49,147 nucleotides of DNA, taken from contig CAIUOD010000001.1 in the NCBI GenBank assembly GCA_903900775.1, positions 1 through 49,147 of the forward strand, written 5' to 3'. This DNA is from Candidatus Adlerbacteria bacterium (GTDB lineage Bacteria; Patescibacteriota; Minisyncoccia; Phycocordibacterales; SBAW01). Positions 20,313 to 26,841 of the stretch are shown piece after piece. Made by a program: the position numbers and the translations under genes. Each line of letters opens with the position of its first letter. The first letter of the stretch is position 1. The notes beneath the pieces are model-generated. The model was not told the DNA's origin and did not search any database. It saw only the letters and a program-made list of their open reading frames with translations.

Positions 20313-20864
20313 ATGCGTACTAAGCTCATCAGCATCTACCTCATCGGCTTCGGGGCCTTGTGCGTTATACTCTACTTCGCTTGGGTGATGCCCTCGTGGT
20401 CATCTTTGCCCGGGCCTTTGGCTGGCCCTGCGAACTCCGTTCAGCAACCATCCTCAACTGCCTCATCTACAATTTCTGCAAACCAATATCAGGGCGGCCA
20501 GGCGCAACTCCCTATGAAAATAATCACCGTCGGCGGAATTAAAATACAAGTCGAAGTTGCCTCGACCGAGGCTGAAAGGCAAGCAGGCCTCTCGGGCCGC
20601 GCGGGGCTCGCCGCGGGGCAGGGGATGCTGTTTGAATTTTCTCAACCGGGCGATTACGGTTTTTGGATGAAAGACATGAACTTTCCTATAGACATACTCT
20701 GGGCTGATCAAAGCGGCACAGTCGTCACTATTTGGCCCAACCTCTCGCCCGCCACTTATCCGCAGTCCTTCCATCCGGCATCTCCGGCTCAATATGTTCT
20801 TGAACTCCCCGCCAACTTCGCCGCGCAGAATGGCATTGCCGTCGGGTCTAAAATATCGATTTGA
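20313..20864 (+). CDS. DUF192 family protein with N-terminal TM anchor
   Basis: VEVASTEAERQAGLSGRAGLAAGQGMLFEFSQPGDYGFWMKDMNFPIDILW. Confidence 0.88.
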   Translation: MRTKLISIYLIGFGALCVILYFAWVMPSWSSLPGPLAGPANSVQQPSSTASSTISANQYQGGQAQLPMKIITVGGIKIQVEVASTEAERQAGLSGRAGLAAGQGMLFEFSQPGDYGFWMKDMNFPIDILWADQSGTVVTIWPNLSPATYPQSFHPASPAQYVLELPANFAAQNGIAVGSKISI

Positions 20865-20888
20865 CAAAATGACCAAATGGTGTATGTT
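20861..20888 (+). promoter_or_regulatory. Strong sigma70-like promoter upstream of the DGR target gene
   Basis: TTGACA - 16 nt - TATGTT. Confidence 0.65.
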
Positions 20889-20958
20889 TTTGGCTAGCTG
20901 ATGGGTCCAGAATTCTCTGTTTATCTGGCCTCAGGACAGCTCATCCGACAATTAGGAG

Positions 20959-21639
20959 ATGATGTCGATGCAACCCGCATTGAACACGTCTGCGATCGTG
21001 ACCTCCGATAGCCCCAAAGGGCAACAGGCCGTCGCGCTATTCCGTGCCCAATACAACAAAGTCGGGCTCGACGATGAAAGCGCCCAGTTGCTCAACGAGC
21101 ACCCCGGCTTCGCCGCCTACCTCGCGGCGGGCATCCGGCAGTTCTCGACCAAGGGGCCGGTCTTTCCCGTCTATCTCAAAATCGAAGTCGGCGGCAAGTC
21201 CAAAGAGGAACTCCTCGCGGAATTGCAGTCCGGCGGTTTTTTCGTCTCGGACTGGGCGAAAGACATTATGTCCAGGCCCGCGTGGAAGCCGGGCGAGAAG
21301 GAGAGGGTGAAGTTCGCCCGCGTTAAAGTGCGCGAGCTCGGATTCACGGATCCGAAGAATCTTCCGACGACTGCGCAGATCTGGGCTCGCATCCAGGAAT
21401 TCGGCCACGCGCTCTGCGAGCCCGGCGACGGCCCGGCCATCCGGCGGGTGCTCACGGACCAGTCGCGCGACGACTACTTATGGGCCGCGATGGAACAAAT
21501 CACGGACTCCGCTGGCGGCCGGCGCGTCTTCTGCGTCAAGCGGGGCGGCGGCGGTGAGCGGTGGCTCGACGCGCGTTGGGCCAATCCGAGCCGCGGATGG
21601 GATCTCGACAGCGAGGTCGTGTTCCGTCTCCGCAAGTAA
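20959..21639 (+). CDS. DGR target (variable) protein; C-terminus carries VR
   Basis: 226 aa; SD AGGAG; last ~45 codons are the VR that matches the downstream TR; start could be ATG 20959, 20962 or 20968. Confidence 0.85.
   Translation: MMSMQPALNTSAIVTSDSPKGQQAVALFRAQYNKVGLDDESAQLLNEHPGFAAYLAAGIRQFSTKGPVFPVYLKIEVGGKSKEELLAELQSGGFFVSDWAKDIMSRPAWKPGEKERVKFARVKVRELGFTDPKNLPTTAQIWARIQEFGHALCEPGDGPAIRRVLTDQSRDDYLWAAMEQITDSAGGRRVFCVKRGGGGERWLDARWANPSRGWDLDSEVVFRLRK
21502..21635 (+). repeat. DGR variable repeat (VR)
   Basis: Gapless 134-nt match to 21950-22083 at constant offset 448; 20 of 21 differences are at TR adenines; final 23 nt GAGGTCGTGTTCCGTCTCCGCAA identical. Confidence 0.93.
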
Positions 21640-21686
21640 CTTCGAACTTTGGGCGCTTAGTTCTAACCCTGAGCCCCTTAACCCTC

Positions 21687-21720
21687 GGCCCTGCACTTCG
21701 GTGCAGGGCCTCTTTTTGTT
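21687..21720 (+). terminator. GC-rich hairpin with TTCG tetraloop and T-tract; terminator and possible DGR target-site hairpin
   Basis: GGCCCTGCAC-TTCG-GTGCAGGGCC-TCTTTTTGTT, starting 52 nt after the end of VR. Confidence 0.85.
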
Positions 21721-21949
21721 ACACTACAGAGCGGTAATAGGTGCATACGTGGGCGGCAAGGATTGCCTGCGGCCGAATCCGACGAACTTACATTGAGCGT
21801 TTCTTCGATTGCGGTTGGAGAAAGAGTAATGTGAGCAAGTCTAAAAAAAGAAGATACTTGGTGCGCGATACTGGGGCATTATCATGCCGAATGAGATACA
21901 GTCCCGAGAGTATTCAAAGGGTGGTGGAACAGAAGGTGCCGCGCACAGG

Positions 21950-22083
21950 ACGGACTCCGATGGCAACCTGAACGTCTTCTACGTCAAGCGGAACGACGAC
22001 GGTAAGCGGTGGCTCAACACGAATTGGGCCAATCCGAGCAACAAATGGGATCTCGACAACGAGGTCGTGTTCCGTCTCCGCAA
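21950..22083 (+). repeat. DGR template repeat (TR)
   Basis: A-rich counterpart of the VR (about 36 adenines); conceptual translation TDSDGNLNVFYVKRNDDGKRWLNTNWANPSNKWDLDNEVVFRLRN. Confidence 0.93.
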
Positions 22084-22103
22084 CTCTCTTCATTTCTCCT
22101 CCG

Positions 22104-22451
22104 TCAGCGTCGCTGTTCGGGGGAGTTTTGTTTTGCGAGTTGTCCCGACCAGCCGCCGAGCATCTTACCTATCTCGTCCATTTTTGACGAAATTTCGATA
22201 TATTTTTTATCCCGCAATGATCTGCTTTCCCACAAGACCATAAGCAATAAAGAAGAGGTATTGAGTTTCCGTATTGCAAGGCGTATGTAGGGTAATTTCT
22301 GATCCCTTGGCAAAAAAGCTGCGGCTGATACTTGCTCCATTATCTCAATAAATAAGGTGTCTATCCTCTCGCCAACGGTATAGCGATGAATTTTAGGGAG
22401 CGTAGAATATATCTCATGCCACAGCAAATAAGCTTGTTTGATTCGCTCCAA
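22104..22451 (-). CDS. avd: Avd-like accessory protein of the DGR (four-helix bundle)
   Basis: 115 aa helical; ...IYSTLPKIHRYTVGERIDTLFIEIMEQV...RLAIRKLNTSSLLLMVLWE...EIGKMLGGWSGQLAK resembles bAvd (VGRILGSW region); TTG start. Confidence 0.75.
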   Translation of the reverse strand: MERIKQAYLLWHEIYSTLPKIHRYTVGERIDTLFIEIMEQVSAAAFLPRDQKLPYIRLAIRKLNTSSLLLMVLWESRSLRDKKYIEISSKMDEIGKMLGGWSGQLAKQNSPEQRR

Positions 22452-22485
22452 AACGGGCAGGAGATTCCTGCGGGGGGGGGTCCAC

Positions 22486-23463
22486 TTGAAGCGGCTCGCT
22501 CATGCCTACCAAGATATCATTTCTATCGAGAATTTACTTCTTGCCTGGCGGGAGTTTCTTAACGGTAAAAGAAACAAGGAAGATGTGCAGGAGTTTGAAT
22601 ATAGGCTCTTCGACAACATACTCGCGCTCCACCAGGAACTGAAAAACAAGGTTTATGTCCATGGTCCGTATTATCACTTCCGCATCAGCGACCCAAAACC
22701 GCGTGATATCCACAAAGCCACCGTGCGCGATCGGCTTCTACATCATGCTATCTATCGAATTCTGTACCCATTCTTCGACTCGAAGTTCGTAACCGATTCG
22801 TATTCCTGCCGCATAAACAAAGGGACGCATCGAGCCATGAATCGCTTTCGCGATTTCGCACGCCAAGAATCTCGTAATCATACTCGCACCTGCTGGGTGC
22901 TCAAATGCGATATCAGAAAATTTTTCGCCAGTATCGACCAGGAAATTCTGATTAGGATTTTACGGAAGCATACCCAAGATGAAGAAACTCTCTGGCTTCT
23001 CGGCCAAGTGGTACGCAGTTTTAATTCCAGCAAAGAGGGGAAGGGCCTACCACTCGGTAATCTCACCAGCCAGCTTCTAGCCAATGTTTATTTGAATGAG
23101 CTTGATCAATTTGTGAAGCACAAACTCAAGGCGAAATATTACATCCGTTACGCCGATGATTTCGTGTTTCTTTCGCATGATAAAAGGTGGCTTGAAAGTA
23201 TTTTACCCAAAATCAGCGTTTTTCTTAAAGACGAGTTACGGCTTACACTGCATCCGAACAAAGTCTCTATAACCACCTTCGCCTCTGGAATCGACTTCCT
23301 CGGCTGGGTGCATTTTCCCGGCCACCGCGTGTTGCGAACCGCAACCAAGCGCAGGATGTTGAAACGGACAAGAGGACTTGAGCAAGATAGTCCAACAGTA
23401 CAATCGTATGTGGGGATGCTAAAGCATGGGGATGGCAAAAAACTTGCCAAAATGTTAAAGTGA
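22486..23463 (+). CDS. DGR-type reverse transcriptase
   Basis: RT palm motifs: LKCDIRKFFASID, KGLPLGNLTSQLLANVYLNELD (LGNLTSQ is the DGR-type motif), YYIRYADDFVFL; no maturase or HNH domain; TTG start 22486 likely (ORF open from 22438). Confidence 0.9.
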   Translation: MKRLAHAYQDIISIENLLLAWREFLNGKRNKEDVQEFEYRLFDNILALHQELKNKVYVHGPYYHFRISDPKPRDIHKATVRDRLLHHAIYRILYPFFDSKFVTDSYSCRINKGTHRAMNRFRDFARQESRNHTRTCWVLKCDIRKFFASIDQEILIRILRKHTQDEETLWLLGQVVRSFNSSKEGKGLPLGNLTSQLLANVYLNELDQFVKHKLKAKYYIRYADDFVFLSHDKRWLESILPKISVFLKDELRLTLHPNKVSITTFASGIDFLGWVHFPGHRVLRTATKRRMLKRTRGLEQDSPTVQSYVGMLKHGDGKKLAKMLK

Positions 23464-23468
23464 TATTA

Positions 23469-23822
23469 GCGCGTTGGGCAGCTACTGTTGGGTTTGTCCG
23501 CCCTAGGCGGATGAGGCCGGCAGAGGAAAGTCCGAACACCACCAGGCGAAAGCTTGGAGAAGGGTAGCAGGTAACCCCTGTCGTGCGCTCATGGCGGGCG
23601 CAAGGGGTGCGAACAGAGACGAGTCCCTTCAGTGGGAGTGAAACGGCAAAATCCCTGCTCGGGTGCAAGGCCGTACTCAACGCAACGCTGCGGAAGTTTA
23701 CCCTTCCGTAGCTTTAGCGAAGGAGGGTGCCGCTTGAGCTCTGGGGCGACCCAGGGCCCAGATAAATGGTTGCCTCGCCCGCCCAAGGCGGGCCAGACAG
23801 AATTCGGCTTACAGACGCGCGC
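23469..23822 (+). ncRNA. rnpB: RNase P RNA (bacterial type A)
   Basis: GAGGAAAGTCCGAACAC, GGTAGCAGGTAACCCCTG, CAAGGCCGTACTCAACG, CAGATAAATGGTTGCC, GACAGAATTCGGCTTACAG; P1 pairing GCGCGT/ACGCGC; ends approximate. Confidence 0.93.
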
Positions 23823-23833
23823 GCCATTGTGTG

Positions 23834-24492: not shown

Positions 24493-26841
24493 ATGTCACC
24501 ACAAATTGTTTCGTTTTTTCGAAATATACAACCAAAGTTTTTCTTATCTTGGTCCCGCCGGTTCTTCCTCGTGGGGGTTGCGCTTTCTATATTATTTGTC
24601 ATTCCTCTCCCGTGGTTCCCGCTCCAGCTTGGTAAACTCGCTATCTTCTCCTTATCTCTTTTCGTCTCACTGCTCCTTTTTGTACTTGGCGGGGGCATGC
24701 GTACTATCTCAAAAACTTCCGGTTCGCTGTTGGCGCTCGCCGTGTGGTCTTTGCCGCTCGCGTATCTCGTCTCATGGCTTTTGTCGGCCGATCGATTTGT
24801 GGGAGTGCTCGGATCATCAATCGAACAAGACACGTTGCTTTTTGTAATACTGTGCTCGCTGGCGTTTATGCTCGGTTTTGCGCTCCTGCGGAGCACTCAC
24901 GGTGCGCGGATGCTCATGAAGACCGCGGCCGCCGCTGTCGGCGTGGCGGCACTCTTCCAAATCATCGTCATTGTTTTCGGCACTCATCTCGTGCCGTTCT
25001 CGGTTTTTAGCGACCACTCGGTCAATGTGGTAGGCAAGTGGAACGATCTCGGTCTCTTAGCCGGGCTCCTGCTCCTTCTTTTGATCGGCTGGCTAGAATG
25101 GGCCTCAGGCTCGCTTATACAGCGGGTCTTGGCCGGGGTCGGCGCCTTTTTGTTACTGTGTCTGCTAGCGGTGATCCAATTTCCGCTCGTGTGGGCGCTG
25201 GTGCTCGCGGGCGCGGCTCTCTGTGGAACCCTTTTCTTCTTACTGCATCGCCCTGAAGGGCTACGGGCGTCTTTCCCTCGAGTGTCCATGGCAGGGGTGG
25301 TGCTTGCGGCGATCTTGCTGGTGTGGGGAGCGGCGGTCAACACCGGCCTCACTTCGCTTTTCCCGGTCTCGGCGCTTGAAGTCCGCCCCTCGTTCTCCTC
25401 AACGCTTGAGGTCGATCGCGCTACGCACGGCGCCTCGGCGCGGCAGCTTTTCTTTGGGGCGGGCCCCAACACCTTCGGCGATGCGTGGCTCTTGCATAAA
25501 CCAGCAGGCGTCAATCAAACACTTTTTTGGAATTTGAATTTCAACCTCGGTTTCAGCACTTTTCTCACCGCGCTCCAGAGCGTCGGGCTCCTCGGGGCGC
25601 TCGCCTGGCTCGCCCCGCTCCTCTTGCTCCTCTATGGGCTTGTGCGTTATCTGCGTGCCCCGCCGCGGCGCGAGTGGGCGACCGTCGCGGCGCTTTCACT
25701 CGTGGTCGGCTACTTCTGGTGCGCCCTGCTTTTGTATATCCCGAGCGAAAATCTGCTCCTCCTGGCGTTTGTCTTCGCTGGCGCCGCGTTTGGTTTGATG
25801 ATGTCTCTCACTTCTACATCGAGCGTGGCGCCTCCCACATCATCGGCGCGGCGGATAATCGCAGAGCGGGTTTTGATAGTGGCGGCGAGCGTGGCGCTCC
25901 TCATGCTCTCTCTGTGGGGAGCGGTGGGGGTCGGTCGGCGTTTCGTGAGTGAAATCTTTGTTAATCAGGGCTCCTTGCTTTCGGCTCAACCGCAAAACGC
26001 GCTTGCTTTAGCTGTACGTGCGCAGAGAGTCGAAAAAACATCCGACAATCTGCGCCTCGGCCTTACGGCCGGCTACGCGCTTCTCCAGCAATTGGCGAAC
26101 AATTCCAAGCCCTCTCCAGAAGAACAGCAACAGTTCGTGGTGCAAGCTCAACAGACGCTGGCCGTGGGCCAGCAGGCAGTGCTCCTCAATCCGCATGATT
26201 ATCAGGCGTTCTTAACACTCGGGAATCTATACGCGCTCTTGAGTTCGGTGGGTATCTCGGGCGCCGGCCAGAGCGCGGTGGATGCGTACCAAAGCGCCGC
26301 CGAGATTAATCCAACCGATCCTGAAATCCCGCTCCAGCTCGCGCGGCTTGCTCAGGCGAGCGGCAACGATTCGGCCGCAGAGAATTTTCTCTCCCAAGCG
26401 CTTACGCTAAAACCAAATTACACCGACGCCATCCTTTTCGTTGTCCAGTACGCGGTCGCTCACAATGACATCCCCACGGCTATCGCGGCGGCGGGGCAGG
26501 CGGTACAAAGTGCCCCCGGCATCCCGTCCTCGTGGTTTGAGCTTGGGCTTCTCTACTACAGCAAAAATGATTTTGCGAACGCGATTCCCGCGCTTGAGCA
26601 AGCAGTGAAGCTCGAGAACGATTATGCGAACGCGCGGTACTTCCTCGGGCTTTCCTATGCCGCCCAGGGCCGCGCCACGGATGCCGTCGCACAGTTCGAA
26701 AATCTGGCGACGACAAACCCCAACAACGCCGAAGTCGCGCTCATTCTCAACAACCTCAAGCAAGGCAAAGAGCCCTTCGCTGGGGCTAAGCCGCCAATCA
26801 CTCCCACCCCGCAGGAGCGCGCCACTGCTCCGCTCCCTTAA
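24493..26841 (+). CDS. O-antigen ligase/polymerase-like membrane protein with C-terminal TPR repeats
   Basis: 10+ TM N-terminus; TPR motifs ALTLKPNYTDAILFV..., WFELGLLYYSKNDFANAIPALEQAVKLENDYANARYFLGLSYAAQGRATDAV. Confidence 0.82.
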   Translation: MSPQIVSFFRNIQPKFFLSWSRRFFLVGVALSILFVIPLPWFPLQLGKLAIFSLSLFVSLLLFVLGGGMRTISKTSGSLLALAVWSLPLAYLVSWLLSADRFVGVLGSSIEQDTLLFVILCSLAFMLGFALLRSTHGARMLMKTAAAAVGVAALFQIIVIVFGTHLVPFSVFSDHSVNVVGKWNDLGLLAGLLLLLLIGWLEWASGSLIQRVLAGVGAFLLLCLLAVIQFPLVWALVLAGAALCGTLFFLLHRPEGLRASFPRVSMAGVVLAAILLVWGAAVNTGLTSLFPVSALEVRPSFSSTLEVDRATHGASARQLFFGAGPNTFGDAWLLHKPAGVNQTLFWNLNFNLGFSTFLTALQSVGLLGALAWLAPLLLLLYGLVRYLRAPPRREWATVAALSLVVGYFWCALLLYIPSENLLLLAFVFAGAAFGLMMSLTSTSSVAPPTSSARRIIAERVLIVAASVALLMLSLWGAVGVGRRFVSEIFVNQGSLLSAQPQNALALAVRAQRVEKTSDNLRLGLTAGYALLQQLANNSKPSPEEQQQFVVQAQQTLAVGQQAVLLNPHDYQAFLTLGNLYALLSSVGISGAGQSAVDAYQSAAEINPTDPEIPLQLARLAQASGNDSAAENFLSQALTLKPNYTDAILFVVQYAVAHNDIPTAIAAAGQAVQSAPGIPSSWFELGLLYYSKNDFANAIPALEQAVKLENDYANARYFLGLSYAAQGRATDAVAQFENLATTNPNNAEVALILNNLKQGKEPFAGAKPPITPTPQERATAPLP

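Follow-up and report, generated by a model that had tools for sequence, protein, structure and literature searches.

A stretch of 49,147 nt of DNA from a Candidatus Adlerbacteria bacterium (GenBank assembly GCA_903900775.1, contig CAIUOD010000001.1; the window hereafter) contains a diversity-generating retroelement (DGR). The element is genuine and has all the canonical parts of its class, as an initial annotation of the bare sequence had proposed, and its host is an ultra-small Patescibacterium. Three features are apparent in the DNA: adenine-specific rewriting of a template repeat (TR) into a variable repeat (VR), a gene for the accessory variability determinant (Avd) lying antisense between the TR and the reverse transcriptase (RT) gene, and a covarying RNA around the TR. 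Judged from sequence comparisons, the locus is very probably a chromosomal DGR of a Patescibacteria-wide lineage whose template forms part of a structured RNA dedicated to it. The genes and repeats of the cassette are:

20959-21639, + strand, target (variable protein) gene, an open reading frame of 226 aa
21502-21635, + strand, VR, defined by ungapped alignment to the TR
21950-22083, + strand, TR, defined by ungapped alignment to the VR
22104-22451, − strand, avd, 115 aa, matched by NF033474, PF22296 and phrog_3206
22472-22480, + strand, G-tract ahead of the RT start, a possible ribosome-binding site that recurs in relatives
22486-23463, + strand, DGR RT with a probable TTG start at 22486 (open reading frame listed from 22438)

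TR and VR align gap-free over 134 nt at a fixed offset of 448 nt, and their similarity ends at either edge of the alignment. The VR is the 3′ end of the target open reading frame, ends just before the stop codon and encodes the last 45 codons of the protein. Among 21 mismatches, 20 fall on TR adenines (16 A>G, 4 A>C and 0 A>T) and one is T>G. The TR holds 36 adenines in its 134 nt, and at least 20 of 21 mismatches on these adenines has P = 4e-13 under random placement. Alignment thus returns the repeats, mismatch counts and adenine content (given as about 36) of the initial annotation, and the even spread of mismatches over all bases that it had named as contrary evidence is not found: the differences cluster at adenines (20/21), which is the bias characteristic of DGRs. 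The same holds for 57 related TR/VR pairs, where 716 of 740 mismatches are at A. No further VR for the window TR was found in its own genome.

The mutational spectrum has some particularities. Changes at A sites in the 57 related pairs are 423 to G, 183 to T and 110 to C; against this spectrum, the 0/20 A>T of the window has P about 0.003. Half of the non-A mismatches in these pairs (12/24) are T>G. Mutagenesis at template U was considered as the source of this T>G excess and rejected; a TR position that was A at copying and later became T fits as an alternative.

A decaying, inactive DGR with old TR/VR mismatches is an unlikely explanation. DGR relics do exist in other genomes, and the window pair has one T>G mismatch and no A>T, as such an explanation could accommodate. 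Against it, all parts of the cassette are intact, 97 of the 98 non-A positions of the TR are unchanged in the VR, and homologs of the target vary in the VR-encoded end. The earlier description of the element as recently active is retained in a weaker form: identity at those 97 positions suggests that copying occurred later than most neutral drift.

The RT carries the motif LGNLTSQ, as annotated, and YADD as well. Clustering with group II introns or retrons would have spoken against a DGR; the RT groups instead with DGR RTs. Its top sequence match in the PDB is 8ub7 ‘Reverse transcriptase’ (E 9.5e-46), which we take to be the DGR RT of the Bordetella phage BPP-1; the next PDB matches are group II-type RTs (about 9e-20), and retron RT chains and profiles score far below the DGR RT. 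BPP-1 brt is a tblastn match of the window RT with 34% identity. The DGR-type RT and the TR/VR pair are not those of a retron. In the RT tree, whose root and long branches are uncertain, the window RT is placed with RTs that carry TR/VR pairs, and a branch (100/98) splits off BPP-1, BalMu-1 and ANMV-1 from the antisense-avd RTs; its canonical side also includes two Patescibacterial DGRs with a co-oriented avd and another three that differ in layout. The listed TTG start at 22438 is probably too early, and TTG 22486 is the likely start, because the G-tract at 22472-22480 recurs in relatives. A phage origin was considered and rejected: phage RTs reach about 41% identity at most, and the exact RNA motif has no match in viral contigs. 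Two close RTs (61 and 66%) did come up when viral contigs were scanned for RTs. The one with 61% identity to the window RT lies on a contig classed as viral (L278, IMGVR_UViG_3300012942_000022), which may be a fragment of a Patescibacterial chromosome or a phage of a Patescibacterium.

The accessory protein of a DGR is present, with profile matches to NF033474 (5e-15), PF22296 (2e-9) and phrog_3206 ‘Avd protein of DGR’ (1.5e-11), of which those to NF033474 and PF22296 lie under curated cut-offs. The presence of an Avd-like gene therefore stands as annotated, but not its position: the gene does not follow the TR in the same direction but occupies the minus strand within the TR-RT spacer, antisense to TR and RT. 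This inverted avd, filling the spacer, is found at 89 of 90 Patescibacterial loci with a placeable Avd (7 of the 90 being the same contig fetched twice), the only exception being a genome of the same family (G001). It is found also in 24 of 28 loci with more divergent RTs. Where a TR/VR pair is recognized, the parts almost always run from the target with its VR through TR and antisense avd to RT. The avd and RT genes start back-to-back, about 35 nt apart, and avd is read towards the 3′ end of the TR RNA, so that the avd and TR-RT transcripts would be complementary. From this sequence arrangement, complementarity may limit or regulate activity, and the antisense position of avd hints at a transcriptional brake inherent in the cassette.

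In a further correction to the initial annotation, the element includes structured RNA upstream of the TR, from ~21733 on. R2 denotes the covariance model of the central domain. The RNA parts and their flanking signals, all on the + strand, are:

21687-21717, + strand, intrinsic-terminator-like hairpin 3′ of the target gene, with a 10-bp stem and a T-run
21717-21725, + strand, extended −10 promoter TGTTACACT of the DGR RNA, from recurrence of TGnTAnnnT in relatives
~21733-22135, + strand, predicted DGR RNA of ~400 nt (leader, central domain, TR, 3′ hairpin and U-rich end), from covariation
21740-21774, + strand, leader hairpin A, with stem 21750-21756/21763-21769 and outer pairs 21740-21742/21772-21774
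21787-21835, + strand, leader outer stem B (21787-21793/21829-21835), enclosing hairpin B (21800-21808/21815-21823)
21837-21953, + strand, window match of model R2
21846-21860, + strand, 5′ strand of helix P0, partner 22081-22095
21861-21946, + strand, central domain, with P1 (21861-21871/21936-21946), the P2 hairpin (21875-21888) and P4 (21899-21904/21919-21924)
22081-22095, + strand, 3′ strand of P0, formed by the last TR bases and the flank CTCTTCATTT
22096-22125, + strand, 3′ hairpin overlapping the avd stop codon and followed by TTTTGTTTTG; model R1, 7/7 pairs covary

An extended −10 element, TGnTAnnnT, occurs in the 45 nt that precede the RNA leader at 23 of 29 loci, against 2.2 expected from shuffles, and in those 23 it sits 15-18 nt ahead of the leader. 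In the window it comes directly after the terminator-like hairpin of the target gene. With its own promoter-like element behind a terminator-like hairpin, the RNA looks like an independent transcript of ~400 nt. Helix P1, of 11 bp, ends 3 nt upstream of the TR. Just 3′ of the TR, most loci carry CTCTTCATTT, exactly or with slight changes, then a stem-loop whose sequence varies and then GAGTTTTGTTTTG. Among 36 loci, the avd frame spans the whole 3′ hairpin in 24, ends inside it in 11 and stops before it in one; conservation of the hairpin is thus at the nucleic-acid level. The leader hairpins at 21750-21769 and 21800-21823 have similar conserved loop regions (of the GAUUACGGUU type in relatives), which are possibly repeated sites for protein binding.

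The structure is supported by covariation. Alignments A1, A3 and A6 are sequence-only MAFFT alignments built before any structure, and A2 was fitted to the model. In the central domain (three helices), 18 of 20 pairs show double changes and 96.5% of cells are paired, with a covariation score of 0.70 against 0.31 in shuffles (0/500) and 0.07-0.16 with slid partners. An ab initio mutual-information scan ranks the same helices top, with z up to 19.5. Similar values are obtained for the leader, with its two hairpins and outer stem (19/24 pairs covary, 97.3% paired, 0.69 versus 0.28, 0/500), and all seven pairs of the 3′ hairpin vary with compensation (94% of cells paired, 0.50 versus 0.18 shuffled, 0/500). 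For the long-range helix P0, own partners score 18.5 and swapped partners 14.4 (sd 0.34, 0/200). Two covarying pairs outside the helices, a G-A/A-G exchange at A3 columns 70/96 and a U-A/C-G pair linking an internal strand to a hairpin loop at A6 columns 55/85, may be tertiary contacts. An H-type pseudoknot GAAUAC/GUAUUC in the central domain, plausible by eye, was discarded for want of compensatory changes.

It is possible, if doubtful, that the 3′ hairpin simply ends the TR transcript as a rho-independent terminator and that P0 is a by-product of conservation of the TR end. The GC-rich stem followed by TTTTGTTTTG has the aspect of a terminator, and variable stem sequence is common in terminators. 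However, conservation extends to CTC/GAG at the foot of the stem and to the flanks CTCTTCATTT and TTTTGTTTT, and the partners in P0 change together across loci, for example AAUCUUGG/CCAAGGUU in L091. The roles of the hairpin as terminator and as RNA-specific element are compatible.

The RNA is widespread. R2 matches 74 DGR loci, 30 of them outside its building set. It is found in 9 of the 35 genomes of the window's genus and in 66 of 381 phylum-wide genomes; 63 of the 66 have a related RT, compared with 120 RT-positive genomes among the 381 overall. More divergent antisense-avd RTs often have weaker R2 matches at the expected place. No R2 match is found in BPP-1, ANMV-1, BalMu-1, G001 or G168, a set that includes co-oriented Patescibacterial DGRs, and a search of Rfam 15 with the window RNA returns nothing. 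Some R2 matches lie in relics: three (L231, L232 and L234, in genomes G334, G255 and G272) retain the 5′ RNA domain alone, without TR and RT, and a fourth (L236, in G024) keeps RNA, TR and hairpin and has lost the RT. These four record DGR decay in their genomes. Where an R2 match has no RT close by, an orphan TR that acts in trans was considered as an explanation and set aside, the inspected cases looking decayed or truncated.

The locus is very unlikely to be a standard DGR of the Bordetella type, with a functional RNA made up of the TR and its 3′ spacer and a conserved upstream part that is a mere regulatory or mRNA leader. The canonical protein parts are complete in the window, and BPP-1 recruits RT-Avd through such a 3′ spacer (PMC12875486). 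Here, however, the TR-RT spacer is occupied by an antisense gene, the strong covariation sits upstream of the TR, and the RNA element follows the antisense-avd RT lineage.

It is tempting to propose that, in the main Patescibacterial DGR lineage, the RNA departs from the Bordetella paradigm. It would be an independent transcript of ~400 nt in which the covarying 5′ domain, not a 3′ spacer, organizes RT-Avd, the long-range helix sets the TR 3′ end for retron-like priming in cis, and the 3′ hairpin is dual-coded with the antisense avd. We give this reading a probability of about 0.55. The RNA would be transcribed on its own and RT-Avd recruited by its 5′ domain. P0 would lay the AUACUUG strand against the TR 3′ end, where cDNA would be primed in cis, by analogy with retron RT priming beside a closing helix, and P1 would halt the RT at the TR start. 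Template adenines would be miscopied during cDNA synthesis, and the mutagenized cDNA would take the place of the VR in the target gene.

Several observations weigh against the reading of the locus as a DGR with a dedicated structured RNA. At fixed register, P0 is paired in 67% versus 62% of cases (0/500), mostly from nine outer positions, so that P0 has weaker support than the other helices; moreover, homing also constrains the part of P0 in the TR 3′ end. Mismatches occur in P1 and P0 of the window itself, and free folding of the window RNA as a single sequence fails to give the full consensus. The shuffle controls leave relatedness among sequences in place, and the U-rich end fits a terminator equally well as a recognition element.

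The target protein has no match in Pfam, PHROG or PDB and no signal peptide obvious by eye. Its AlphaFold2 model has a pLDDT of 75, with about 80-90 in the C-terminal part; in Foldseek it gives no match with E<1, and no CLec is among the matches listed. Homologs of the target are encoded at 12 other DGR loci, including the second DGR of the same genome. The lack of a recognizable domain agrees with the description of targets in the candidate phyla radiation (CPR) by Roux et al. (PMC8144416).

The genome has about 0.76 Mb in 41 contigs and is 97% complete. Its second complete DGR (L030:9562-12023, on contig C6 of G000) has an RT 66% identical to that of the window, 12/12 TR/VR mismatches at A, the same antisense avd and RNA, and a target homologous to the window target. 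The setting of the window cassette is:

20865-23465, + strand, whole DGR insert, from the DUF192 stop codon to the first rnpB base, by comparison with congeners
23466-23827, RNase P RNA (rnpB), starting 3 nt after the RT stop codon
23965-24384, IS200-family transposase, between rnpB and the gene at 24493-26841

Upstream of the DGR lie a glutamate-dehydrogenase-like gene and a DUF192 gene, both named by eye. The DUF192-like gene and rnpB sit side by side in about 25 congeners, where the extended −10 of rnpB overlaps the stop codon of DUF192; the DGR at 20865-23465 is thus a clean insert. It displaces the rnpB promoter of congeners. The RT 3′ end reads TGTTAAAGT where congeners carry the rnpB −10, and this putative element may be a residual or replacement promoter. 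In congeners, rnpB directly adjoins the counterpart of the gene at 24493-26841, without the transposase.

DGRs in Patescibacteria are already known, and clade 2 of Roux et al. 2021 is restricted to Patescibacteria/CPR (PMC8144416). The present lineage is probably that clade, a candidate assignment; the two share host group, cellular location and a target without recognizable domain or membrane segment. A word search of the same article finds no mention of avd, orientation or strand. In the classification of Yan et al. 2019, based on TR, VR and RT only and leaving avd orientation unrecorded, the window shares the co-orientation of target/VR, TR and RT seen in the prototypical BPP-1 pattern (PMC6642488). 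No description of an inverted avd or of this RNA was found in the accessible literature. An earlier account elsewhere is possible; the combination of RNA and antisense avd is provisionally regarded as new.

The comparison with retrons is one of analogy. A retron msr-msd consists of a structured 5′ RNA followed by the template, with a long-range helix closing near the priming region, and is primed from a branching guanosine. The window RNA resembles it by analogy only; unlike in a retron, it has as template a TR with a homologous VR, served by a DGR RT and Avd and without a retron effector.

Knowledge of the DGR mechanism comes mostly from one phage system, BPP-1, and a second, widespread RNA architecture with clear helices offers a testable handle on how TR RNA is recognized and how cDNA starts and stops. 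The covariance model detects elements and relics without a TR/VR pair and is useful for surveys of Patescibacteria. If the RNA works alone, laboratory strains would also gain from it a compact alternative platform for targeted mutagenesis. In Bordetella-type DGRs, an inverted repeat lies a few nt from the VR. This repeat, downstream of the VR, is strong (Guo et al. 2011, PMC3240598). Such a repeat is not found in the window, where the only strong hairpin after the VR is 51 nt away and terminator-like, and a perfect stem of at least 7 bp within 70 nt downstream of the VR occurs at just 2 of 44 loci.

The likeness to BPP-1 (mtd-avd-TR-brt) is otherwise clear, with a TR/VR of 134 nt, adenine-specific change, a VR at the 3′ end of the target, an Avd and an RT 34% identical. 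In BPP-1, avd is co-oriented and directly 5′ of the TR, and a 3′ spacer of 144 nt separates TR and brt. This canonical layout, with a co-oriented avd upstream of the TR, is not that of the window, where the spacer holds avd in antisense and most of the structured RNA lies 5′ of the TR. In BPP-1, a structured spacer and a priming adenine lie on the 3′ side of the TR, and a stop signal is on its 5′ side (PMC12875486), so that the parts in the window appear rearranged, not absent. The layout of antisense avd and structured RNA is common to the main DGR group of the phylum and absent from BPP-1.

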